Positions 562 to 64,000 of a stretch of 64,000 nt of DNA are shown one piece after another (the first letter of the stretch is position 1; every line of letters starts with the position of its first letter). The stretch comes from Agelas oroides (lineage: Eukaryota; Porifera; Demospongiae; Agelasida; Agelasidae), in contig OX422183.1 in the NCBI GenBank assembly GCA_949130485.1, forward strand, positions 11,754,543 to 11,818,542, read 5' to 3'. The notes below the pieces were generated by a model, which saw only the letters and a program-made list of their open reading frames with translations, made no database searches and had not been told where the DNA came from. The position numbers were made by a program, and so were the translations under genes.

Positions 562-1471
562 GTTTTTGCTGTGCACTTACGAATCTTTCAGATGCGCAAG
601 CACAGTCATGAATTGCCGAGTGCCGTACAGTCTTGGTCCCAGGCTGTATGGAACAAAGGCAGGGTGGCACATAACAGGTACTGCATAACCACACCCATCA
701 ATTTTGACAGTGAAGTTCTCTTGCTACTCTTGCTACCAGGTATTGGCAGCTAAGAGATGTGGTTTGTTTAACGTCTGTCTACCTTAAGCTTGGACTTTCC
801 AAAACTGCAAGTTGGGACGATGTCACCGTTCTGTCCCATTTTAATATATAACAGTGCCATTGTGAACTGTCACACTCTTGGCTGGCTACACTTTACCTGG
901 AAATTCCTGCCACAAAACTCTTACCTTCATCTGAGCATACACAGCCTTTAGTATAATCGCTACACTAGTCTTGTGTGCTTGGACTTGACTGTTAGGGGTA
1001 ACCTTGCATGCAAGTTGACACAGAATCCTCTTCAGGTTGGATCATCCAACTTGCAAGGCTACAGCCAGACTATTTAGTTCTATTCTGTGAGCCCAGTAGC
1101 CAAGTCGTGATCTCCATGTCTTTATTCAATGCAACCTGGGACTGAGAACTTACGGCACAGTGATACATGATCATTCTTGGCTTGCCTTGTATGAATTGTG
1201 CAATTAACTTGCAAGGCTGAAGTCAGAGTGTTTTTACCTCTACAGACCTGTTCATTCTCCGTAAAGACCGTGAGTCCAGTAGTCCATTCCAGTAGTCCAG
1301 TCCAGTGAATAGTGACGGCCAACCTGAAATTTGTATCTTCATCAAATTTCGAGTTGGTATAAAATAAGAATTGTTGTGATGCAAGGCAAGAAGACTGATG
1401 GGTTTCAACACAGTGTTATGTATGGCTATATATATTTATGGAACATTTCTGCATATGTTTAGATATTTCAG

Positions 1472-4400
1472 TGTCCTATGGAACTCGACCTAGTACAGCA
1501 GCAGAAACAGACGAATTTGTGTAAGTAACAGAGTAGCAGCATGCACGTTTATAATTGGGGAAAGTGAGGATTCGATTTCTGAAGGTTGGTCTGATGCTTT
1601 ACCAACTGAACCATTGGAGCTGTATGCTAGCTAGAGTGTTGGTAGCATCTCTCTGCCTCACACTCTACGCTCATCTCTACCCCCCTCCCCCTTCCCCCAA
1701 CTCAATTGTTATTTTTAGCAGTGCAAGTCACATGTATTCTAAGTCTTGGGATTGGTTCATCACGGCTACTATATGCGGCACACACACAGGTATGCGAATG
1801 ATTTCTGATGACAGTCACCGGGCTAGCGCTAGGGCTGTTTGTGTTGTACTACTCCTTCAGCTGTGCTCACTACTGACAGTGTCTAACAGTCGTTACTGTA
1901 TCGCTTGTACGTACCTTATCCAGCCATTGTTGATGTCCACGGGCTTTACAAACAAATAAATTCCGCCCTCGAATAGTAGCCGCCCTCGAATAGTAGCCAC
2001 CCTTGAATAGTAGCTACCCTTGAATAGTAGCCGCCCTCGAATAGTAGCCGCACAAAAACTTGCAGCGAAAAAATAGTAGCCATGGCATCTGATTGAAGAA
2101 ATATGGTATAATTATATCATTACAATCGTAAGTAGGATACTATATTTAACACACCCCTATATAAGCAATCCCTAAGTATTTCACCCTCAAATATTTTCTT
2201 CTAGATGAAACCTTGCTTAGGTAAATGTATGACTGAGTTTGCTAAACAAAATACAACAAACAAACAACTGAAATTGTTGGCTTGTAGTGGTACAACACAA
2301 CAACATACATTCTCACATTGCACTGTTCAGCTCCTGGTTTTGTTGACTATTAGATCCCAGTGTATTGGAAAAGCAATCATGAAATTTTACACAAAATAGC
2401 CAATGTAAAATATTCAAGTGCGCATGCTAAACTCTCTCTATGTGCAGGCTTCAGAGTCCACCTCTTGGTAAATCAGCAAAGAGCAATGATTATCAAGAGC
2501 AACAGCCTGAAGATCCTCCTTCACCGTACTACAACTGCCTCAGCAAGTACCAGAATGGCCTACAGGAGCAGCCAAAGCAGGACTATGGAGTTGACGTTCC
2601 AGATACTGGTGTGCAGTACTTCCAGCACAACCCTCGGCCTGTTCCCAACCCAGCCTACAATGACCACATCCCTACTAACCTGGGTCAGCCGAGTCCGAAG
2701 AGTCCCCACCAAACCTCCTTGCCTCGCAGCCTTACTAACTATCAGCAAGGTGAAGAGATTAAATGTCGGTGAAGGGGCATGGTAATGTGCATGTAAGAGT
2801 ACCAAGGGCAGAGAAACAGACCTAGCACCGAAGGAGCTCAGCTAGGCCTTTAGTATACCATTTCAACTTGCAGCACAGACTTGGCCATTGGCTGAGCAGG
2901 ATTGTCACTCAAATCTGTAATCATTCAATATACCCCAGTGTACATGAAGTATAGACTCAAAAATTTGGGTCCGCTGGAATAACATCTTCATGCCTGGCCT
3001 GGCTTGTGGACTTTTGTCTGCAATCACTACACTAAACAAAATATTTTAGTGGGACTATAGTGGCTGTTTTAGCCTGAAAGTGGCCTCGAAGCAATCTCAG
3101 AGTAGCTAATTTCTCTGAGGGAGCACATCCCGGACCCCCTATATACCTGCCAGGTTTGGTTGTATCTAATCACTGGACTGGATTGTGGACTGGATTGCTA
3201 GACTGGACTGATGGACGGGATTATTATTTGCTCATGTCACATGACTTCCATCCAATGAAATGTCGTAAATTTGGTTACAGTAACTGCCTTATTATAAGCT
3301 GCACTTCATCTTCTCACTGCATGCCAGGGTATGTACGAGTGCACAATGCACAAGCTACATGGACGGATGTGTACCATGAGTTCATGGTCTACATGCAGTG
3401 AGCTCAAAGCACCCTCTGATTATGGCGAGTATGCAAAGAGCATCAAAAGTAATGACAAAGGCCTTTTCACTACAAAATGTACTGTGCCAAGGCAGGGCCG
3501 GCGGCAATGGTACGGTCGGTACGGCCGTGGCCGTACCGGTTTTGAGGGAGAAAAAATGACGTCGCTTGGATTCTAACTCACGTGTGCGTTATGGAATAGC
3601 CTCTCACAAGCATCCAAAGTAGCGACCAGAGGATTGAGGCTTTCTCAATTTTCTATGGCAATATTTGAGTGCGAGACGAAATTGGGGCGGGGCTAATATG
3701 CGAGCATGAAATGCCCGTGTGAGGCGGTCATTTTAGCCAGCACGGTTCAATCACTTCATGATCACTGGCTGCAGAAACTACAAGTGGGCAGATTCTAGTA
3801 GCATTCTTGTCTCAGAAGCGATCTCAGAGTACCTAATTTTAAAAATTTCCCAGGGGAGCATGCCCCCAGACTCCCCTAGCTTCTTCACACTTATGACATA
3901 CCTAGCCTCGTTCCCAGGCCCCGCCCAGCTTTCTGTCGCTTATTACCACGGCTTTTCCGTACTGCAAGCGACGGAAAGCTGGGCGGGGCCTGGGAACAAG
4001 GCTATGACATACCCTCATCCGTCGCCAATGGCTGTACCAGTTTAAAATAACTGGCTCCGGCCCTCCAAGGAGAACACTGGTGTAAAATACCATGCTGGTT
4101 AGTGGTTACCCAGGCTATTATTACCCATAGTCTTGTTGAATGTAGCCATGTAAAAGCTAATGCTTGGTCAGCGAGAGGTCTTGCATAGAATAGACTACAG
4201 TGCCAATTGGCCTACCAAGCAGTTCCATCTGCTTAGTTACCTTTCAAGGTCTCTTAGGCACAAAACTCCCACAGTTGTATGCATGCTGTGTCCTTTGTTT
4301 CACGGCAATCCATTAGCCACAAAGCATCAAACATGTGACCCAATTCAGCACATCTGATTGGGGAGATCATGCGGTACACACAATTTAAGTTCAAAGGTCA

Positions 4401-6247
4401 GTCTAGTAATCCAGTCCATCAGTCCAGTCCAGTGATCCAGTCCACGGTGATCCAGTCCACGGTTATCCAGTCCACAATCCAGTCCAGCGATTCACATTAC
4501 TCAGCCCCTCCCCCCGTCCAATCTGAAGTATTTTTCTTCACCACTGATTTGGAACTGAATTTGCTCCTCTCAGGGTATGTAGGTGTAAGTGCCTTTATAA
4601 TTGGGAATCAGTAGTGATCTTTATCAGTCTCCACTAACTGATGATAATCAATATATCAGTTTAAATAATAAGGTGAACAGGAAGGACCTCCCACAAAATT
4701 GTTTTTCAAAGACCAAAAATTAGATAAATATGTACAAGCATGGTATAATGGGTACAGTCAATAGTACAGTATATGCCACGAGGCATACTGTATGGGCATG
4801 AAACTCAATGTCTCCAATTTAATCATTACACTTTGATAATCACTGAAAATTGTGAAATGGATGTTGATAGCTAATCGATTTTCCGATGTATCGATCCCAG
4901 CCTTATTAAAAGATTTATAGTCATGTGATTGCGAGTGTGTTTAGCAACAGTAATTGTAGTTGTCATAGATATGGAATTGGGGTGAGCTTTGAATGCCCAC
5001 TGTTTGTGCAAGTCCATGGCAAGCAGTACTGCAAGAATTGTTCAGAGCTTTAGTAGATGGGGAAGACAGGAAGGCTATGTTGCCTCTTGTGATACTGTAA
5101 TTGCTGCTGTTCATGTAAAATTTCCTCACTCTGCATTAACAACACTGTTTAGCCATTCTGAGATTACCATTGAGATTTTGTGCAAGCCTCAGTGTGTGAA
5201 CATGTGTAGCCATGCAGGCTCTTTCTCCCAAGGTGTGGTTGTGGTATGTGACTCTGCAGCTGCATAACATTACACTGACCATCTTCTACCTTAGTGAGAG
5301 AAAAAATGGAGACATAAACTTGATTGTTTTGCGATTTTTGATCACACCACCAAATTATATTCTCTCAACTATTCATTCCTGTGATGCCAATTGTGTGGGG
5401 TAGTTATCATTGTGCATCACTGTTAAAAACACCCATATATGTGTATGGCTAGTGACTTCTCCTTTTGCCACATATTCATAATGCAGGACCGTAGCCAGGA
5501 TTTTCAGAAGGGGGGTTACATAGATATGTGATGTGCATGTATGCATGTATAAGCATACAAAGTAGGGGGGTCTGGTGGTATGCTCCCCCAGCAAATTTTG
5601 AAGCATAGATGCTCTGAGATTGCTTCTAAGACCATTTTGGGACAGAAGCAGAGCTGTAGTAGCTACGTGGTCTGCAGAGTATTGCATCCAGTTTTTGCCT
5701 GTATCGTATCCATGTATGGTCATTACTAAGCCAGCTGATATCAAAGGAAATGTAGTGAGAAAACAGCAGGTGGAGTGACAAATGGTCTAGGTTGTTCAGC
5801 TTCCACTTCTTTCTTGGCAGAAACTCAGTAGAAGGACAAACTCTCGAGCACCAGCGATTTAATTATGCAACTATATTGCAGTGGCGTAAATGTGTATGCA
5901 TTCCAGGTTCACCCGCTGGTCCTCAGTAACAAACGCGTTGCACAGCCAAACTTGTTTGGACAGTGGTGACTCTCAATGGCAGGCTAGTGGATAGCTTAAG
6001 AACGGCATAACGTATAGCTAGGCGGTGTATAGAATCTTTTGGAAGCTAAAAGGGGAGATTTGAGTGAACCCCCTGGCCTGTAAATGCATTCATAATGTTT
6101 CACCTTTGTTTCCACACAGGTAATGGTCATACTGGCAGCAAGCAGTATCCTGAGTCAGTGGTGTCCGATAAACAGTTTCCTACTTCTCCCATACATGTCA
6201 CCCCACTAAGAGCTCCCCTCTCAAAGAGCACACCACTGGTGAGTTAG
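1472..6247 (+). CDS. Receptor gene copy A: cytoplasmic-tail exons (5' part outside window)
   Basis: Three coding exons are visible: 1472-1520 (49 nt), 2448-2749 (302 nt) and 6120-6247 (ends at TAG). All have AG acceptors; the first two end at donors GTAAGT and GTGAAG. Phases fit (1 in, 2, 1, stop). The product is a cytoplasmic tail, not an enzyme: proline-rich, with many tyrosines in the middle exon (NDYQEQ, PYYNCL, KQDYGV, VQYFQ, PAYNDH, TNYQQG), which look like docking sites for SH2/PTB or SH3 adaptors. The matching copy B gene puts an FN3 exon and a transmembrane exon before these, so copy A is probably the 3' end of a paralogous receptor whose ectodomain lies left of the window. The last exon could also splice at 6239 (GTGAGT) instead of reading through to the stop. 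No family name is recognised. Confidence is high that these are exons and moderate for the exact gene model. Confidence 0.7.
1560..1640 (-). repeat. tRNA-derived SINE-like sequence, copy A
   Basis: Read on the minus strand, this has a tRNA-like A box (TGGTTCAGTTGG), an anticodon-arm-like stretch and a B-box-like TCGAATCC. It cannot fold into a complete functional tRNA and is followed by a pyrimidine-rich tract. The same sequence lies in copy B at 13617-13700. A decayed tRNA gene is the alternative. Confidence 0.5.
1967..2060. repeat. 18-bp minisatellite (GAATAGTAGCC unit)
   Basis: Five tandem units built on GAATAGTAGCCGCCCTC occur in copy A; the matching position in copy B (14047-14090) has only two. 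The repeat has therefore changed length since the duplication. Confidence 0.8.
3168..4492. mobile_element. Candidate inverted-repeat element with iterated CCAGTCCA ends, copy A
   Basis: The left end begins AATCACTGGACTGGATTG and repeats TGGACTGGAT several times. The right end is the inverted counterpart, repeating ATCCAGTCCA and finishing in GCGATT. No transposase is encoded; the interior is non-coding. It is present in both duplicated copies (3168-4492 and 15218-17236), so it pre-dates the duplication. Related CCAGTCCA blocks at 1262-1320, 10998-11030 and 13335-13372 look like ends of a relative. Confidence 0.45.
3903..4004. mobile_element. 102-bp hairpin MITE with 9-bp target duplication
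   Basis: Nearly the whole element is one inverted repeat, starting TAGCCTCGTTCCCAGG and ending with the reverse complement. It is flanked by identical TGACATACC at 3894-3902 and 4005-4013. Copy B has the uninterrupted site at about 16765, which defines the insertion exactly. A 9-bp duplication is typical of Mutator-like (MULE) transposition; no protein is encoded. Confidence 0.9.
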
Positions 6248-12300: not shown

Positions 12301-15300
12301 AACTCCTGAACGAAACGTTCTTGGCGAAATCGGCTCAATTTAAACACATCCTCGTTCGGTTTGAAGCCTATCTGCGTCCAAACTTCAGAGATTTAGCCGC
12401 CAGGTGAGCCAAGCTAGTTGTAACAGACAGACAGACAGACACACAGACAGACAGACAGACAGACAAACGAAGTACTGTAACCCTCGCTGCGCATGCGCGC
12501 CGAGGGTTAACTACTGAACTCATGGAAAATTAATGATGGACAGGGCAATGATGCTATAAACACCCTGACTTTAGCCTTGCAAGTCATACAAGACAAGCTG
12601 AAGTAAACCTACAAATCTTTCAGATGAGCAAGCACAGTCATGAATTGCCGAGTGCTGTACAGTCTTGGTCCTGGGTCGTATGGAACAAAGGCAGGGTGGC
12701 ACATATGTAACAGGTACTGCATAACCACACCCATCAGTATTGACAGTGAAGTTCTCCCCAATCAATACTCTTATTACCAGGTATTGGCGGCTAAGAGATG
12801 TGGTTTGTTTGAACTCCGTCTACCTTAAGCTTGGACTTCCAAAACTGCAAGTTGGAACAATGTCACCATTCTGTCCCATTTTAATATATAACAGTGCCAT
12901 GAACTGTCACACTCTTGGTTGGCTACACTTTATCTGGAAGTTCCTGCCACAAAACTCTTATCTTCATCTGAGCAGTGCACACACAGCCCTTAGTATAATT
13001 GCTACAATAGTCTTGTGTGCTTGGACTTGACTGTTTGCATGCCAGATCTAGGGGTAACCTTGTGTTTGAGTTGACAAAGGATCCTCTCCTCTCTTGGATC
13101 ATCCAACTTGCAAGGCTACGGCCAGACTGTTTAGCTCTATTCTGTGAGCCCAGTAGCCAAGTTGTGACCTCCATGTCTTCATTCAATGCAACCTGGGACT
13201 GAGAAAGTATGGCACAGTGATACGCGATCATTCTTGGCTTGCCTTGTATGAATTGTGCAACCAACTTGCAAAGGCTGTAGTCAGAGTGTTTTACCTCTAC
13301 AGACCAGTTCATTCTTCGTAAAGAGGCATTTTCCGTAAGTCAAGTAGTCCAGTCCACTGAATAGTGACGACCAATCTGAAATTTGTCAAATTTTAAGTTG
13401 GTGTAAAATAAAAATTGTTGTGATGCAAGGCAAAAAGACTGCTGGGTTTCAACACAGTGTTATGTATGGCTATATATATATTTATTGCAATATATATTAT
13501 TTCTGCATATGTTTAGATATTTCAGTGTCCTATGGAACTCGACCTAGTACAGCAGCAGAAACAGATGAATTTGTGTAAGTATAACAGTAACAGAGTAGCA
13601 GCATGCACGTTTATAATTGGGGGAAGTGAGGATTCGGTTTCTGAAGGTTGGTCTGATGCTCTTACTAACTGAACCATTGGAGCTGTATACTAGCTAGAGT
13701 GTTGGTAGCACTTCTCTGCCTCACACTCTACGCTCATCTCTAGCCCCCTACCCTCCCCCTTCCCCCAACTCAATTTTTATTTTTAGCAGTGCAAGTCACA
13801 TGTATTCTAAGTCTTGAGATTGGTTCATCACAGCTACTATATGCGGCACACGCACAGGTATGCGAATAATTTCTGATGACGGTCACTGGGCTAGCGCGAG
13901 GGCTGTTTGTGTTGTACGACTCCTTTCTATGGCTGACAGCAGGACTCAGAGGCTGTGCTCACTACTAACAGTCGTTACTGTATCGCTTGTACGTACCTTA
14001 TCCAGCCATTGTTGATGTCCGCGGGCTTTCCAAAAAAATAAACGCTGCCCTCGAATAGTAGCCACCCTTGAATAGTAGCCACACAAAACTTGCAGCGAAA
14101 AAAATTGTAGCCGTGGCATCTGATTGAAGAAATATGGTATATATCATTACAATCGTAAGTAGGATACTATATTTAACACACCCCTATATATATACTTAAA
14201 GCAATCCCTAAGTACTTCACCCTTTTCCTTCTAGATGAGATCTTGCTTAGGAAAATGTATGACTGAGCTTGCTAGACAAAATACAACAAACAAACAAACA
14301 ACTGAAATTGTTGGCTGGTAATGGTACAACAAAGCAAAATACATTGACATTGCACTTTTCAGCTCCTGTTTATGTTGACTATTAGATCCAAGTGTATTTG
14401 GAAAGCTATCATGAAATTCTACACAAAGTAATTATTATGTAAAATATTCAAGTGTGCATGCTAGACTCCCTCTACGTGCAGGCTTCAGAGTCCACCTCTT
14501 GGTAAATCAGCAAAGAGCAATGATTATCAAGAGCAGCAGCCCGAAGATCCTCCTTCACCGTACTACAACTGCCTCAGCAAGTACCAAAATGGATTACAGG
14601 AACAGCCAAAGCAGGACTATGGAGTTGACGTTCCAGATACTGGTGTGAAGTACTTCCAGCGCAACCCTCGGCCAGTTCCCAACCCAGCCTACAATGACCA
14701 CATCCCTACTAACCTGGGTCAGCCGAGTCCAAAGAGTCCCCACCAAACCTCCTTGCCTCGCAGCCTTACTAACTATCAGCAAGGTAAATAGATTAAATGT
14801 TTGGGAAGGGGCATGGTAATGTGCATGTAAGTGTACCAAGGGCAGAGAAACAGACCTAGTACTGGAGGACCTCAGCCAGGCCTATAGTATACCCATGTAG
14901 CTACCATTTTAACTTGCAGCACAGAGTTGGCCATTGACTGAGTAGGATCGTCACTCAAATCTGTAATCAATCGTTCAATATACCCCAGTGTACATGAAGT
15001 ATAGACTCAAAAATTTGGGTCCGCTGGAATAACATCTTCATGCCTGGCCTGGCTTGTGGACTTTTGTCTGCAATCACTACACTAAACAAAATATTTGAGT
15101 GGGACTATAGTGGCTGTTTTAGCCTGAAAGTGGCCTCGAAGCAATCTCAGAGTAGCTAATTTCTCTGAGGGAGCACACCCCGGACCCCCTATATACCTGC
15201 CAGGTTTGGTTGTATCTAATCACTGGACTGGATTGTGGACTGGATTGCTAGACTGGACTGATGGATTATTATTTGCTCATATCACATGACTTCCATCCAA

Positions 15301-18300
15301 TGAAATGTCGTAAATTTGGTTACAGTAACTGCCTTACTATAAGCTGCACTTCATCTTCTCACTGCATGCTAGGGTATGTACAAGTGCACAATGCACAAGC
15401 TACATGGATGGATGTGTACCATGAGTTCATGGTCTACATGCAGTGAGCTCAAAGCACCCTCTGATTATGGCGAGTATGCAAACAGCATCAAAAGTAATGA
15501 CAAAGGCCTTTTCACTACAAAATGTACTGTGCCAAGGCAGGGCCGGCGGCAATGGTACGGCCGGTACGGCCATGGCCGTACCGGTTTTGAGGGAGAAAAA
15601 ATGACGTCGCTTGGATTCTAACTCACGTGTGTGCGTTATGGAATAGCCTCTCACAAGCATCCAAAGTAGCGACCAGAGGATTGAGGCTTTCTCAATTTTC
15701 TATGGCAATATTTGAGTGCGAGACGAAATTGGGGCGGGGCTAATATGCGAGCATGAAATGCCCGTGTGAGGCGGTCATTTTAGCCAGCACGGTTCAATCA
15801 CTTCATGCTCAGAACGATTAAGGTGGGCTTAACTTTATTATTCGTAACGCGGAAGTACGCGAGGATATTGCAATAGTTTACGGAAACTGAATTGCTGCCG
15901 AGTGTAAGCGTCTTAACTTTGTCATCGTTATTCTGACCGTTAGTCTTTTCTCCATAGCTTTGTTTTAGCTCTGATAATGAAGTACGTATGTCCGAATTTC
16001 AGAAGGGATATCACTGAGACCGAGAGCCGCGTGTTTCTGCGAGCAGAAGGCAGAAGTATTAAAAGCTCAAGTCATATCGAGCGACGATGACCGATCGTCT
16101 TTGGCGGTTTATGCGGAACACTCACCAGCCTTGGAACCAAGATCTGATGGCTTTTCTGTGTACAGGAGGAGTTGAAGTTGTTATAACCAAGTGGCATTTG
16201 TGCTGTTAACGCTGTGCTGAGAAAGCCTTAACTTTTGAAAGTTAAGGACCACCCGATAAGCCCCAATTTTTACCTATTTTCGATTATATATCAGCCGTAT
16301 AAAGGAAAGCCGTTTCATGCCACTTGGTTTCTGTTAGACCATGATCTATAGTAATAGTGGCTACAATGGCTTAGCTCTCAGGCTACGTCTTCAGTTCCGC
16401 ATTTTGCAGTATTTATTGCTACAAACGGCTTGTTTACACGAGCGCGGCTGCTGTTAATTAGTTGCCATGACAACAAATTGTTTTCATTTACAGAATTGGG
16501 AAGCATCATTGTTGTCATTGTTACAAACCCCATGTTCATACTGCCATGGGTTCATGAGATATTTAAAGTTAAATTCACCATGTAAAAACTTGATGGGTGT
16601 ATCATTTTATATATTTTAGCCTGCCTTAACTGTTCTGAGTGATCACTGGCTGCAGAAACTACAAGTGGGCAGATTCTAGTAGCATTTTTGTCTCAGAAGC
16701 TACCTAATTTTAAAAATTTCCCAGGGGAGCATGCCCCCAGACTCCCCTAGCTTCTTCACACTTATGGCATACCCTCATCCGTCGCCAATGGCTGTACCAG
16801 TTTGAAATAACTGGCTCCGGCCCTCCAAGGAGAACACTGGTGTAAAATACCATGCTGGTTAGTGGTTACCCAGGCTATTATTACCCATAGTCTTGTTGAA
16901 TGTAGCCATGTAAAAGCTATGCTTGGTCAGCGAGAGGCCTTGCATAGAATAGACTACAGTGCCAATTGGCCTACCAAGCAGTTCCATCTGCTTAGTTACC
17001 TTTCAAGGTCTCTTAGGCACAAAACTCCCACAGTTGTATGCATGCTGTGTCCTTTGTTTCACGGCAATCCATTAGCCACAAAGCATCAAACATGTGACCC
17101 GATTCAGCACATCTGATTGGGGAGATCATGCGGTACACACAATTTAAGTTCAAAGGTCAGTCTAGTAATCCAGTCCATCAGTCCAGTCCAGTGATCCAGT
17201 CCACGGTGATCCAGTCCACAATCCAGTCCAGCGATTCACATTACTCAGCCCCTCCCCCCATCCAATCTGAAGTATTTTTCTTCACCACTGATTTGGAACT
17301 GAATTTGCTCCTCTCAGGGTATGTAGGTGTAAGTGCCTTTATAATTGGGAATCAGTAGTGATCTTTATCAGTCTCCACTAACTGATGATAATCAATATAT
17401 CGGTTTAAATAATAAGGTGAACAGGAAGGACCTCCCACAAAATTGTTTTTCAAAGTCCAAAAATTAGATAAATATGTACAAGCATGGTATAATGGGTACA
17501 GTCAATAGTACAGTATATGCCACGAGGCATACTGTATGGGCATGAAACTCAATGTCTCCAATTTAATCATTACACTTTGATAATCACTGAAAATTGTGAA
17601 ATGGATGTTGATAGCTAATCGATTTTCCGATGTATCGATCCCAGCCTTATTAAAAGATTTATAGTCATGTGATTGCGAGTGTGTTTAGCAACAGTAATTG
17701 TAGTTGTCATAGATGTGGAATTGGGGTGAGCTTTGAATGCCCACTGTTTGTGCAAGTCCATGGCAAGCAGTACTGCAAGAATTGTTCAGAGCTTTAGTAG
17801 ATGGGGAAGACAGGAAGGCTATGTTGCCTCTTGTGATACTGTAATTGCTGCTGTTCATGTAAAATTTCCTCACTCTGCATTAACAACACTGTTTAGCCAT
17901 TCTGAGATTACCATTGAGATTTTGTGCAAGCCTCAGTGTGTGAACATGTGTAGCCATGCAGGCTCTTTCTCCTAAGGTGTGGTCGTGGTATGTGACTCTG
18001 CAGCTGCATAACATTACACTGACCATCTTCTACCTTAGTGAGAGAAAAAATGGAGACATAAACTAATCTTGATTGTTTTGCCATTTTTGATCACACCACC
18101 AAATTATATTCTCTCAACTATTTATGCCAATTGAGTGGGGTAGCTGTCACTGTGCATCACTGTTAAAAACACCCATATATGTGTATGGCTAGTGACTTCT
18201 CCTTTTGCCACATATTCATAATGCAGGACCGTAGCCAGGATTTTCAGAAGGGGGGGTTACATAGATGTGTGATGTGCATGTATGCATGTATAAGCATACA

Positions 18301-19079
18301 AAGTAGTCTGGTGGCATGCTCCCCCAGTTTGAAAAATAGATGCTCTGAGATTGCTTCTGAGGCCATTTTGTAACAGAAGCAGAGCCGTAGTAGCTATGTG
18401 GTCTGCAGAGTATTGCATCCAGTTTTTGCCTGTATCGTATCCATGTATGGACGTTACTAAGCCAGCTGACATCAAAGGAAATGTAGTGAGAAAACAGCAG
18501 GTGGAGTGACAAATGGTCTAGGCATTCAGCTTCTGCTTCTTTCCTGGCAGAAACTCACTAGAAGGACAAACTCTCGAGCACCTGAAACGGCGATTTAATT
18601 ACGCAACTATATTGCAGTGGCGTAAATGTGTATGCATTCCAGATTCACCCGCTGGTCCTCAGTAACAAACGCGTTGCACAGCCAAACTTGTTTGGATGGC
18701 AGTGACTCTCAATGGCAGCAAGGCTAGTGGATGGCTTAAAAATGATAGGGCATAATATACTGGACAGCGGTGACTCTCAATGGCAGCAAGGCTAGTGGAT
18801 GGCTTAAAAATGATAGGGCATAATGTATAGCTAGGCGGTGTATAGAATCTTTTGGAAGCTAAAAGGGGAGATTCGAGTGAACCCCCGCGAACCTCCTTGC
18901 CTACGGGCCTGTAAATTCATAATGTGCCATCATTCACCTTTGTTTCCACAGGTAATGGTCATACTGGCAGCAAGCAGTATCCTGAGTCAGTGGTGTCCGA
19001 TAAACAGTTTCCTACCTCTCCCATACATGTCACCCCACTAAGAGCCCCCCTCTCAAAGAGCACACCACTGGTGAGCTAG
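9316..19079 (+). CDS. Receptor gene copy B: FN3 - transmembrane - tyrosine-rich tail (5' end not found)
   Basis: Five exons are supported: 9316-9653 (FN3 domain), 10610-10738 (transmembrane), 13526-13574, 14482-14783 and 18952-19079 (TAG stop). Borders are AG/GT and phases chain correctly. The FN3 exon shows the Y-x-F-x-V-x-A-x-N pattern of the domain's G-strand side (DYVFAVAAENDIG) and a late N-x-S site. Exon two encodes a Gly/Val/Ile/Leu helix followed by a basic stop-transfer stretch (RKKKKNK). The tail is nearly identical to copy A, rich in Tyr and Pro. Likely a single-pass cell-surface adhesion or signalling receptor without a kinase. Oddity: a CT pair at 9373-9376 puts the two halves of the FN3 exon in different frames. 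It may be a pseudogene, a polymorphism or a sequencing slip. No signal peptide exon is seen upstream. Confidence 0.65.
11314..11929. mobile_element. CAGTGGCGG inverted-repeat element (616 bp)
   Basis: Begins CAGTGGCGGATCTAG and ends with the inverse (TCCGCCACTG), with G-rich/C-rich runs just inside both ends. GCCTG is repeated at 11309-11313 and 11930-11934, a likely 5-bp target duplication. It encodes nothing recognisable. It is nested in the TTAA-type element. Confidence 0.75.
12041..12367. repeat. Long imperfect palindrome (two arms of about 150 bp)
   Basis: The left arm starts GCTTCAAACCGAACGAGGAC and the right arm ends with its inverse; near the centre are paired CCCGGGATCCCAGACCAG-type blocks around a short GC-rich loop. 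Arms are highly alike with a few small gaps, so the transcript or single strand would fold into one long hairpin. Probably a foldback-type element; it lies inside the TTAA-type element. Confidence 0.85.
12423..12475. repeat. (ACAG)n microsatellite
   Basis: About a dozen ACAG units with one ACAC interruption follow the long palindrome. Confidence 0.9.
13617..13700 (-). repeat. tRNA-derived SINE-like sequence, copy B
   Basis: Partner of 1560-1640 within the duplication, with the same A-box-like and B-box-like motifs on the minus strand and a few substitutions. Confidence 0.5.
15218..17236. mobile_element. Candidate CCAGTCCA-ended element, copy B (interrupted)
   Basis: Partner of 3168-4492 in copy B, with the same iterated TGGACTGGAT left end and inverted right end. 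It is longer because the 832-bp element at 15808-16639 has inserted into it, and it has fewer CCAGTCCA units at its right end. Confidence 0.45.
15808..16639. mobile_element. 832-bp inverted-repeat insertion present only in copy B
   Basis: Ends are CTCAGAACGATTAAGG and the inverse of CTCAGAACAGTTAAGG (14 of 16 matching). The empty site is readable in copy A at about 3757, where CTTCATGATCAC is uninterrupted. Comparison shows only a 2-bp TG duplicated. No ORF of note, so non-autonomous. The insertion post-dates the duplication. Superfamily not assigned. Confidence 0.85.
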
Positions 19080-60461: not shown

Positions 60462-61675
60462 ATTCATCACGTGAATGACGTCAGGTGGACGCGAGGTGGA
60501 CGTAGGGGGAGGGGCCCAACCGCAAATATGTATACGCCCACGCACTTGCGAGCAAGTGCCAATGGTATTATATAGTGCTGCGCTGCCGAGCGGAGTAGCA
60601 TCGAGCGCGCGAACGGCTAGAGTCTGGACTAGGCGACCAAATAGACCATTAGCTGAATTTTCAATGGATTAAAATTTAGGGTCTGAACCAAGCTAGTCTC
60701 GCGAAGCCAAATTCACGCGTTGCAAATTGAACCTCACAGGTACGGCGCTCCAGCACTAGTCATCAGCCAACATTTAACCCAGCGGCAGTAACGATACTCT
60801 TCTTACATTAAAAAATGGTTTCGTAAATGACAAATATACTAAAAATGGAATAGAAATGACATAAGTGGCAAATGAACTGTGATAACTAAAATAGCTAAGC
60901 TAGGGTATAAAACCAAGCACATTTGACATAAAACCAGTCAGAAAGGTAATTGTACAACATGGAATCATCACGTTATAGCTGGATGCAGTGGTTGGAAGTA
61001 TCCTACAATGAAACACCAACCAAAGGGCCAGATGCCAAGCGAGTTAAATTTTCCGACATCCATGGGAGTTTGATGGCACAGTTTCCATCTGATGTGATCT
61101 CCAAGCAGATGGCTGCACATACAATCCAAGAAGCTTTTCCAAATGCACAGAAGCAGCGCTTAGGGCGTGAAAAGAACACATACATTGTATAGGAATACAA
61201 CCACCAGTGCAGCAATCCTGTAGAAGTTTTGCAGGCTCAAAATCAAGAGCTCACTGAGACAGTTTGCCAACTGCAAGCAAGAATTCGCGAGCTTGAAGAA
61301 CAGACATCGCAATCAACTTCGATGCACACCCTTCTACCATCCACGGTGCAAAGTCATTTGGGTACACCTTCCACAGAAGCCCTTCTATCATCTGTGATGG
61401 AAACTCCTGCACATCCAACTTCACAGATTGTGCAGCAGATGGATTCACTGTTGCAGCATGGCCATCAAATCGTACACGGTCCAGATACACCAGACCACTT
61501 TTCAGAATTTTCAATGGATTCTGTCACTAGTGAGCTTCAGTCAATTACACCTGATGCATATCAGTTGTTTGTCCACCTAGGGGATACAGATAGAAACAAA
61601 TCTGATGATGAAACTCCTCTTGAGCAACGGAAGGCCATCATGACCGTCTTTGTGTACCATCCTGAACACAGTTAA

Positions 61676-61797
61676 AAATGGGGTGCTACATTACACCCCT
61701 GGGGCACTACACCATACCGGTTATTAAAAACATCAAAGGGAAGTTTTAATAACCAGTATGGTGTAGTGCCCCAGGGGTGTAATGTAGCACCCCATTT
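61676..61797. mobile_element. 122-bp perfect-hairpin MITE with TTAA duplication
   Basis: TTAA at 61672-61675 and 61798-61801 flanks ends AAATGGGGTGCTACATTACA and the exact inverse. Arms of about 56 bp differ at one base. Typical piggyBac/Kolobok target. It interrupts the DUF6589-like gene. Confidence 0.9.
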
Positions 61798-62793
61798 TTA
61801 ACCGTGAATGCAAGATCTAGGGTGGTAAATGGTTTGCAGCTGCTTTTGAGTTTCATGCTGATAGCCCGAGCTACAAGCAAACAGGTAAGAAATACATGTC
61901 ATTATGTTAGCAATAATGTGTTACTACGACAAACGTTAAACTGTTACACTGCAATTATCCACTACAGGCAATTGCTGTACTGAACCATGTTGGTGTGTGT
62001 GTGTCATATAAAAGAGCATGGTAATACCTTCGACAACTAACAACTGAGGCTCGGTATTTGGAAGTTGTGAGAGGAGGATATTGGATGTGGGTGTATGATA
62101 ATGTCAACATCCACCAGAAAGTTCGACATGAACGTGAAGGTGAGAATGGTAGTCCATGTACTTTTTCATTGTCTGTTAATTTTACAGAAAAAATCCACTG
62201 GGATATTGTTCAGTATTAACTGCTCAATATACTGGTAACATAATACCTTTAATTTGATGTGATTATACTGCATATTTACAGATAAGCATTCAACAATGCT
62301 CAACTTGACTGCATGACTTGCGGTACAAATACAGCACTTACCAGACTGGGAGATTGACTGGAATGACACCACTCCCCAGCGTGATCCAGCTACACTGACC
62401 ATCACAGACATCTTGCCGACTGAAGGTGATGGTCAGAAGCTGAAGAAGTGAGCTGTGCAGTATGTGATGCAGTTTCTGGTGATGGAGTTTGGTTGTCTGA
62501 ATAATCTCACCGGTCCTTCCTACATACGGCATATCTTTATGTAGATCTAAGGAATGCCACTCGTTATGAAGATGGAGAACACATAATCTGCCACTGGAAA
62601 TGGTGGTTACCACGATTTATAGCAACTGGTTGCAAGAACTATGCACTTGAGGCGGCGAATCTCATTGCAAACATCACAGCAAAGTTCCCAAAACACATGG
62701 CCTACATTACTATCCACAACCGTACTGGATGGTAGATGTGGTCATGGCAAGCCAGTAGACCAACTTATGGAGCACTACAACCTGTATGTACTA

Positions 62794-63577
62794 CCGTAGT
62801 GTCCCGTTAATACGCCCCCCCATTTTTACACTACATCCCGCCTAAAGTGGGGGGGGGGGGGGGCTTATATTCGAGGATGCAATTAGTCTCGACTATAAGC
62901 CCCCCCCCCCCCCCCCCCCCCAAAAGATTTTACGCAAGTGCTATGTATACGCAATTAGGACACTTCCAACTAACTATGGCGACGACTTTCAGGATCGAGA
63001 GTACTGTTCGCGGACATCACGTTTACAAAGCTGCGTGGTCTCCCTACATCGGAGAAGAGCTGCCAGTTCAACGCGAGGTCAATAACATTCACGACGACTT
63101 CGCTGTAGCTGTCCTCAAGAACGGCAACACTGTCGGTCATGTACCACGGGAAATTTCCAGAGTCTGCTGGTATTTCTTGCACAAGAGTGGCAGCGAGATG
63201 ACTTGCATCGTCAATGGTGACAGAAGACGTTCTGAAGTTGATGGGAAGGGACTCGTGGTTCCGTGCGTGTACATCTTCAGAGGGAAACAAAAACACCTTG
63301 ACAGACTGATAAACCTGTTTGCTAAACTAGCAGCTTAAAACTTGGAACATCTAACCGGCTTTTCTAAAAGCCACAAAACTTACAAAAGATTCACCGACTA
63401 CTATAGTGACTGAACGCACTTGCAACGTATAGTAAGCACGTGTAGTTTTGATGTTCCAGAAGACGCTCACTGGGGGGCGTTATAACGAGTCAAACTACCC
63501 TGTGCAGGAACTTTGGCGGAAAAGAGGGGGGGGGGGGGGCGTATTTTCGAAGGGGACGTATTAGCGGGACACTACGG
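62794..63577 (+). mobile_element. 784-bp inverted-repeat element carrying a HIRAN ORF
   Basis: TACTA is repeated at 62789-62793 and 63578-63582. The ends are CCGTAGTGTCCCGTTAATAC and the inverse of CCGTAGTGTCCCGCTAATAC, followed on both sides by long C/G runs. Inside the left end a G-tract/CTTATA and TATAAG/C-tract pair can form a hairpin (62848-62925). The only coding content is the HIRAN ORF. It splits the DUF6589-like gene, whose sequence resumes after the right end. Confidence 0.85.
62976..63338 (+). CDS. Stand-alone HIRAN-domain protein
   Basis: 120 residues, ATG to TAA, no break. The protein is almost only a HIRAN domain (about residues 12-100): HHVYKAAWSPYIGEELPVQR, then the signature NNIHDDFAVAVLKNGNTVGHV and PREISRVCWYFL, ending in VPCVYIF. 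HIRAN domains (HIP116/Rad5 N-terminal) bind DNA ends, notably the 3'-OH of single-stranded DNA, and usually sit next to a SNF2 helicase or nuclease domain; here there is none. The basic C terminus (RGKQKHLDRLINLFAKL) may add nucleic-acid contact. An open frame continues upstream of the ATG through the C tract to 62847, but the ATG at 62976 just before the domain is the sensible start. It is the only intact ORF of its element. It may be cargo, or a protein that acts on the element's ends; I cannot tell which. Confidence 0.85.
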   Translation: MATTFRIESTVRGHHVYKAAWSPYIGEELPVQREVNNIHDDFAVAVLKNGNTVGHVPREISRVCWYFLHKSGSEMTCIVNGDRRRSEVDGKGLVVPCVYIFRGKQKHLDRLINLFAKLAA

Positions 63578-64000
63578 TACTACTTATATGCAATACACAG
63601 TACAGCATATCATTTATAATGCATGTTTCTTCCTCATTAGTGTTCTGAAGCAAGCTTTACGCTCAAGTGGAGTCAATGCCACAGAGAAGCACATTGAGGA
63701 TGTATCTCTTTGTAGCATGTTCCTTATGGAGGCTGCTAAGAAGGCAGATATAGAGTCGGTGTCACTCCACGCTCTACCAAACATACTGTTCGTCATGCTT
63801 CTACTGATATCAGGAAAATGGCAATGCATCTGATTGATCACAAAGTCACTGTACAAACAACAGGACGTACCTCTTCACCATTCAAAGATGTTACAGAAGA
63901 TGGTTTCAAGAAGATGTCCCAAAGTTGGCTCAAACAGGTGCTGACAAAGGCTGCAGCTCCTCCCAATGATGATCCAGAACCACCTCTACAGGGAGACATG

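Follow-up and report, generated by a model that had tools for sequence, protein, structure and literature searches.

A HIRAN-encoding repeat of the sponge Agelas oroides is very probably a deletion copy of a two-gene pogo-type transposon

Results

Organization of the 784-bp unit

The window, a stretch of 64,000 nucleotides from Agelas oroides (contig OX422183.1 of assembly GCA_949130485.1), contains a 784-bp unit whose features are listed in Table 1. The inverted ends and the HIRAN gene reported in the initial annotation were both recovered in this study. The ends pair over 26 bp with 92% identity in inverted orientation, and 0.00 occurrences of the two 21-base end matches were expected in shuffled sequences. 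The ORF between them is unbroken and matches the Pfam HIRAN family (PF08797) at 31.4 bits against a cut-off of 24.7 (E=1.7e-7). Sequence comparison revealed that the left 176 bases represent the transposase side of a larger parent element: element positions 1-176 match the copy L062, and positions 65-176 match L106:1105-1201, past the transposase stop of this full-length copy. The subterminal inverted repeat within this part possibly offers extra transposase-binding sites. The motifs CTTATANTCGAG and CGTATTTTCGAA, repeated beside poly-G/C runs near both ends of the unit (62849-62914 and 63526-63550), are candidate transposase-binding sites.

Table 1. Positions of the features of the 784-bp unit (window coordinates) and of the full-length elements (contig coordinates)
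Feature	Position	Strand	Remarks
Whole unit	62794-63577		784 bases; bounded by terminal inverted repeats, without transposase
TA target-site copy, left	62792..62793		TA flanks both sides in 61/64 paired copies
Left terminal inverted repeat, CCGTAGTGTCCCGTTAATACGCCCCC	62794..62819	+	Genome has 245 forward and 249 reverse occurrences of the 21-base form; none for the reversed control
Subterminal inverted repeat	62849..62914 (arms 62849-62875 and 62888-62914)		Also at the transposase end of full-length copy L106
Remnant of the parent's transposase side (terminal region plus 3'-flanking sequence of the deleted transposase gene)	62794..62969	-
Internal deletion junction	62967..62970		CAA common to both sides, by eye, against L062
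HIRAN ORF	62976..63338	+	120 codons plus stop, unbroken
HIRAN-side noncoding and subterminal region	63339..63551		Aligned across copies
Right terminal inverted repeat	63552..63577	-	Pairs with the left end, 26 bp
TA target-site copy, right	63578..63579		Same basis as the left copy
Full-length element on C5	3984766-3987140		2375 bp; size from termini
Full-length element on C3	1982219-1984591		2373 bp; size from termini

The host locus had initially been described as a decayed gene. This was not established: none of the four flanking ORFs reached a Pfam cut-off. When the genome was searched with the sequences flanking the unit, copies of the element took up the 40 places scored among 355 candidates, and no insertion-free paralogue came up among them. 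Elsewhere in the window, a 140-bp segment (61667-61806) with its own inverted repeat at 91% and, by eye, TTAA-like flanks looks like a fold-back MITE. Two pairs of duplicated blocks were also observed (575-3764 with 12607-15811 and 4003-6002 with 16763-18742), at 89% and 95% identity, respectively.

Copies of the unit in the genome

A total of 70 loci were examined for target sites; a pair of ends was recognized at 64 of them and was absent at the other six. Nearly all paired copies are flanked by TA on both sides (Table 1). The TACTA duplication of the initial annotation was rejected as the target duplication and is a coincidence at the window site, since 56 of the 64 paired copies show a duplication of exactly 2 bp and two show one of 5 bp.

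The 21-base end is abundant in the genome (Table 1), and a 27-base HIRAN core, allowing up to two mismatches, was found 107+137 times (control 0). Each of the 39 exact HIRAN cores on contig C1 has an exact end no more than 1 kb away. An exact core is present in 39 of the 53 elements defined on this contig by exact ends, and the remaining 14 include copies with a complete ORF (L078, L100). A DNA search with scores for 40 of 334 candidates gave full-length matches throughout, namely the window copy itself and 39 copies at 96-97%. The association of cores with ends and the similarity of the copies indicate that HIRAN and these ends belong together and that the burst is recent. The ends are thus not a single occurrence, nor do the exact cores of C1 stand apart from them, these being the two observations that the initial annotation had named as evidence against itself. 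A HIRAN ORF of 119-121 codons was found in 19 of 30 similarity-ranked copies by direct reading (18 by alignment columns) and in 13 of 39 copies defined by their inverted repeats; other copies, such as L081, L082 and L084, have lost part of HIRAN.

Analysis of places with the same first 13 end bases, TACCGTAGTGTCCCGR, gave 13 places, four of which were read for 501 bases each. One of these (L103) holds a decayed HIRAN piece. The other three (L101, L102 and L104, at C1:24727127, C3:11214994 and C5:6304120) were set aside as another short repeat family, with TACCGTAGTGTCCCGG as its first 13 end bases and without HIRAN over the 501 bases covered; this family was possibly moved by a related transposase.

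Full-length parent and an older relative

When a diverged HIRAN protein was used as the query, 150 places were scored; one of them (L105) matched at 90% identity, and the others belong to the family of the window unit, at about 59-64%. The L105 element measures about 1.28 kb and has TA-flanked ends of the unit's kind, with a terminal inverted repeat of 33 bp. The start of its HIRAN frame looks damaged by eye, and its opposite strand encodes 116 codons of a transposase N-terminus with an HTH_Tnp_Tc5 domain above cut-off. In a tblastn search with this N-terminus, all 57 candidates were scored and 44 matches were obtained. Two of these sit in 455-codon open frames, on contigs C3 and C5, and the opposite strand encodes a HIRAN copy about 200 bp away from each frame.

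Both termini of the C3 copy and both of the C5 copy carry the ends of the unit, next to TA. For C5, 1201 bases (C5:3985880-3987080, containing the last 340 codons of the 455-codon frame) and both termini were read, and for C3 the termini; the remainder of both elements, including the transposase N-termini, comes from translated matches. The C5 transposase matches DDE_1 at E=4.1e-29, and its three aspartates are separated by 108 and 36 residues. When the genome was searched with the 340 transposase residues, these two places alone matched at 99-100%; the next best match, covering residues 81-256, was 59% identical and contained four stops. A search of solved structures with the transposase fragment gave a single, unrelated match (E=0.58). 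Paired matches to the first ~33 residues of the transposase, ~320 bp apart, were observed at C2:7014093, C1:14264568, C2:5927259 and similar places of the genome (G000), which suggests another MITE family built of transposase pieces.

The genome thus contains what the initial annotation had proposed to look for, a full-length relative that shares the ends and encodes a transposase, and HIRAN is therefore a resident second gene of the transposon. A helper function in end recognition, as also suggested initially, may apply to it. Because ~244 HIRAN cores are found against two full transposases, nearly all copies are derivatives. Taken together, our analysis makes it very probable that the unit derives, by an internal deletion that removed the transposase, from a pogo-type transposon of two genes in which HIRAN stands back to back with the transposase. 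The parent's transposase likely moved the unit in trans, and we infer that the element type found on C3 and C5 supplied the transposase of the burst.

Formation of the derivatives

The copy L062, a third match of the tblastn search with the L105 N-terminus, has an intact HIRAN gene, a transposase N-terminus with a BrkDBD domain above cut-off and a transposase tail, the middle being deleted. Comparison of 69 copies revealed three leader types between the transposase side and HIRAN. Type a, the window's own, is represented by 44 copies, type b by 16, including L062 with the parent's leader, and type c by two, with seven copies unassigned. In type a, the parent sequence resumes six bases ahead of the HIRAN start; as a result, the intergenic region, presumably a shared promoter, is gone. 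HIRAN is therefore most likely a passenger in the window's derivative type. All three junctions leave the HIRAN ORF whole, which is suggestive, and three such events could be chance.

Comparison with known transposon groups

MITEs are internally deleted non-autonomous DNA transposons that are short, present in high copy number and without coding capacity. The unit resembles them in its shortness, its copy number, its lack of a transposase and its sharing of ends with an autonomous-looking element; it differs in that a complete accessory ORF is kept in a good part of its copies.

As described in PMC7386202, the pogo superfamily of IS630-Tc1-mariner has a TA duplication, type 1 inverted repeats of up to 40 bp, a length of 1.2-5.2 kb and one or two ORFs encoding transposases. 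These transposases have a DDE_1 domain, its D,D,D triad having a spacing of 29-59, and an N-terminal HTH_Tnp_Tc5, BrkDBD, CENP-B_N or similar domain (PMC7386202). The parent shares the TA duplication, a short inverted repeat (26 bp in the window, 33 bp in L105), the length range, a DDE_1 transposase with D,D,D spacing and both DNA-binding domains, BrkDBD in L062 and HTH_Tnp_Tc5 in L105. It differs in having a second, divergently oriented gene encoding a HIRAN protein, a word absent from the main text of PMC7386202. The Passer family of pogo is described there as having BrkDBD and HTH_Tnp_Tc5, or HTH_Tnp_Tc5 alone, and DD35D in almost all members (PMC7386202). The parent has the Passer domains, but by our own count it has 36 residues in place of the 35 and is not filed as Passer.

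Extra non-transposase genes are also found in the TET/JBP-carrying DNA transposons of fungi, as presented in PMC12730594, but these encode a DNA-modifying enzyme and not a DNA-end binder. The three-ORF TBE/Tec elements of ciliates likewise carry an extra gene, with another accessory protein and in another host group, according to PMC7325037. No description of a HIRAN gene in a eukaryotic transposon was found in titles and the beginnings of abstracts; subscription papers and Repbase lie mostly outside this scope, and an earlier record may exist.

Relatives in other genomes

HIRAN homologues numbered 210 and 639 in two protein searches, and a third search yielded 230 homologues of the transposase; the comparisons rest on the best 120 matches of each. 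Among the matches listed, 168 HIRAN contigs and 116 transposase contigs showed 11 exact coincidences in size, ten of them with the same source; the coincidence at 1652 was rejected since the sources differ. A shifted-size control gave a mean of 0.88 coincidences (maximum 4). Six coincidences exceeded 10 kb, for which the control mean was 0.0025 (maximum 1). These identical sizes lead us to infer that ten contigs of other assemblies bear both HIRAN and the transposase. Four coinciding contigs are shorter than 3.1 kb, so that the two genes must be close there. The contigs do not come from the window's genome, because the search of that genome with the transposase found no intact copy at the 62-72% identity of these contigs.

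Among the matches listed, the majority of the HIRAN entries and of the transposase entries lack a partner, which fits abundant derivatives and is not proof of them. Close transposase relatives are also unpaired among these matches, for example P0124 (75%), which bears both BrkDBD and HTH_Tnp_Tc5. HIRAN and transposase distances correlated across nine pairs and the window's own (r=0.77, permutation p about 1e-4), the pair P0270/P0243 being omitted as its transposase piece has the N-terminal domains only. Common descent of both genes with their hosts would produce a correlation of this kind as well. One transposase homologue has the gene name Em0011g649a, which we take to be from Ephydatia, a sponge. 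Pattern searches for relatives in viral contigs and in contigs of GTDB genomes gave 13 and 16 matches, respectively, none of which was confirmed. NCBI assigns a HIRAN protein of the window's family (P0251) to a Proteobacteria MAG whose longest contig is 3 kb, an assignment that looks like host contamination.

The HIRAN protein

HIRAN of HLTF binds 3' DNA ends. The window protein is predicted to have the HIRAN fold, the same as in HLTF and Rad5 HIRAN, at 20-22% identity to HLTF. In HLTF and Rad5 this domain is part of a Snf2 helicase, whereas the window protein is a stand-alone, transposon-encoded protein of 120 amino acids. Alignment placed HLTF Y73, N91, D94 and H110 (numbers counted by hand) on the conserved W21, N37, D40 and H55; HLTF Y93 falls on H39, and the DNA-stacking Y72 falls on the non-aromatic A20. 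Y72 and Y93 are named as HLTF HIRAN pocket residues in the text of PMC4666394, where the site is described as accommodating a single-stranded dinucleotide. One solved complex of HLTF HIRAN (6kcs) is with duplex DNA, going by its title.

Selection on HIRAN

Distinct variants against the majority in 55 aligned elements comprised 67 nonsynonymous changes, 30 synonymous changes and four stops; the ORF's own mutation spectrum gives expectations of 66.8%, 30.3% and 2.9%, respectively. Selection on HIRAN inside the recent burst was not seen in these 55 elements, and a count on the 30 copies of highest similarity agreed with this. The youth of the burst explains why the ORF in the window is unbroken. 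Of the initial suggestion that the ORF reflects either recent insertion or selection, the part on recency thus held, and selection was not seen among the recent copies.

R6K is common to six copies with a stop after codon 31 (L010, L019, L028, L029, L072 and L095). Since L028 and L029 have identical flanks, this dead-ORF lineage reached at least five sites. Its amplification, together with the neutral change, indicates that HIRAN is not needed in cis. The presence of this lineage, with its stop at codon 32, at separate sites and the lack of a transposase in the unit speak against captured cargo that spreads by itself, as had been proposed initially.

Comparison of the window with L105 gave another picture at long range. 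The two HIRAN proteins share 66% of residues, and over 113 codons the differences number 30, 23 and 67 at codon positions 1, 2 and 3 (dN 0.27, dS saturated). For the transposase N-termini of L062 and L105, the differences over 93 codons are 25, 30 and 51 (dN 0.36, dS 2.4). On this single pair, HIRAN appears about as constrained as the transposase, and codon comparison suggests that purifying selection on HIRAN is visible at long range only.

Discussion

What HIRAN contributes to the transposon is a matter of graded likelihood. A role of the protein on DNA 3' ends during transposition is predicted with somewhat less than even confidence; the non-aromatic residue opposite HLTF Y72, the neutral change in the burst and the amplified dead-ORF lineage weigh against it. 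In such a role, the shared region of the full-length element would drive both the transposase and HIRAN. The transposase would cut at the ends and join them to TA, and HIRAN, as an accessory factor, would bind the 3' ends exposed at excision, in the donor gap, or at a repair fork. It could thereby steer the gap to repair that restores or copies the element. Interrupted gap repair would yield deletion copies, which the transposase would then mobilize in trans. The wider proposal, that this pogo lineage is a two-component system in which HIRAN grips excision or fork 3' ends while repair copies the element, with the HIRAN-only derivatives as its satellites, is possible and more doubtful.

A small DNA-binding regulator, acting as a repressor or competitor that sits on the subterminal repeats or the ends and through which HIRAN-bearing derivatives damp transposition, would agree with a stand-alone protein of 120 amino acids with a DNA-binding fold, with the many derivatives that keep HIRAN (the exact core in 39 of 53 elements on C1) and with the duplex DNA in the title of 6kcs. 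We consider it unlikely, since the HLTF site takes a single-stranded dinucleotide (PMC4666394) and no sign of selection keeping HIRAN in derivatives was seen. The predicted fold, shared with HLTF and Rad5 HIRAN, and the long-range conservation beside the transposase would also suit a counter-defence protein that mimics the host, competing with HLTF/Rad5-type HIRAN at breaks or forks and blunting repair or surveillance of the excision site. No observation separates such a mimic from a helper, and it is rated less likely than a regulator.

A captured host gene without any role in transposition, lying in the part of the element that deletions spared, would account for the neutral change in the burst (67 nonsynonymous, 30 synonymous, four stops) and for the continued amplification of the dead-ORF lineage. 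It is nevertheless less likely again, because HIRAN is constrained like the transposase between L105 and the window (67 of 113 third positions against 30 first and 23 second positions) and because the presumed pairing on ten further contigs comes with correlated divergences. High copy number is what an independent element with its own mobility would show as well, but a unit that lacks a transposase, has its ends and TA in common with full-length pogo copies and consists on its left of the parent's transposase side is highly improbable as such an element.

Cut-and-paste transposons generally leave the mending of the gap to the host, and the influence of transposons on host gap repair is poorly understood. 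The keeping of a DNA-binding, repair-type domain beside a pogo transposase over deep divergence suggests a transposon-borne factor that faces repair, and the two near-identical full-length copies on C3 and C5 make the role of HIRAN directly testable. For annotators, small stand-alone HIRAN proteins in such genomes may be transposon genes and not host repair genes.
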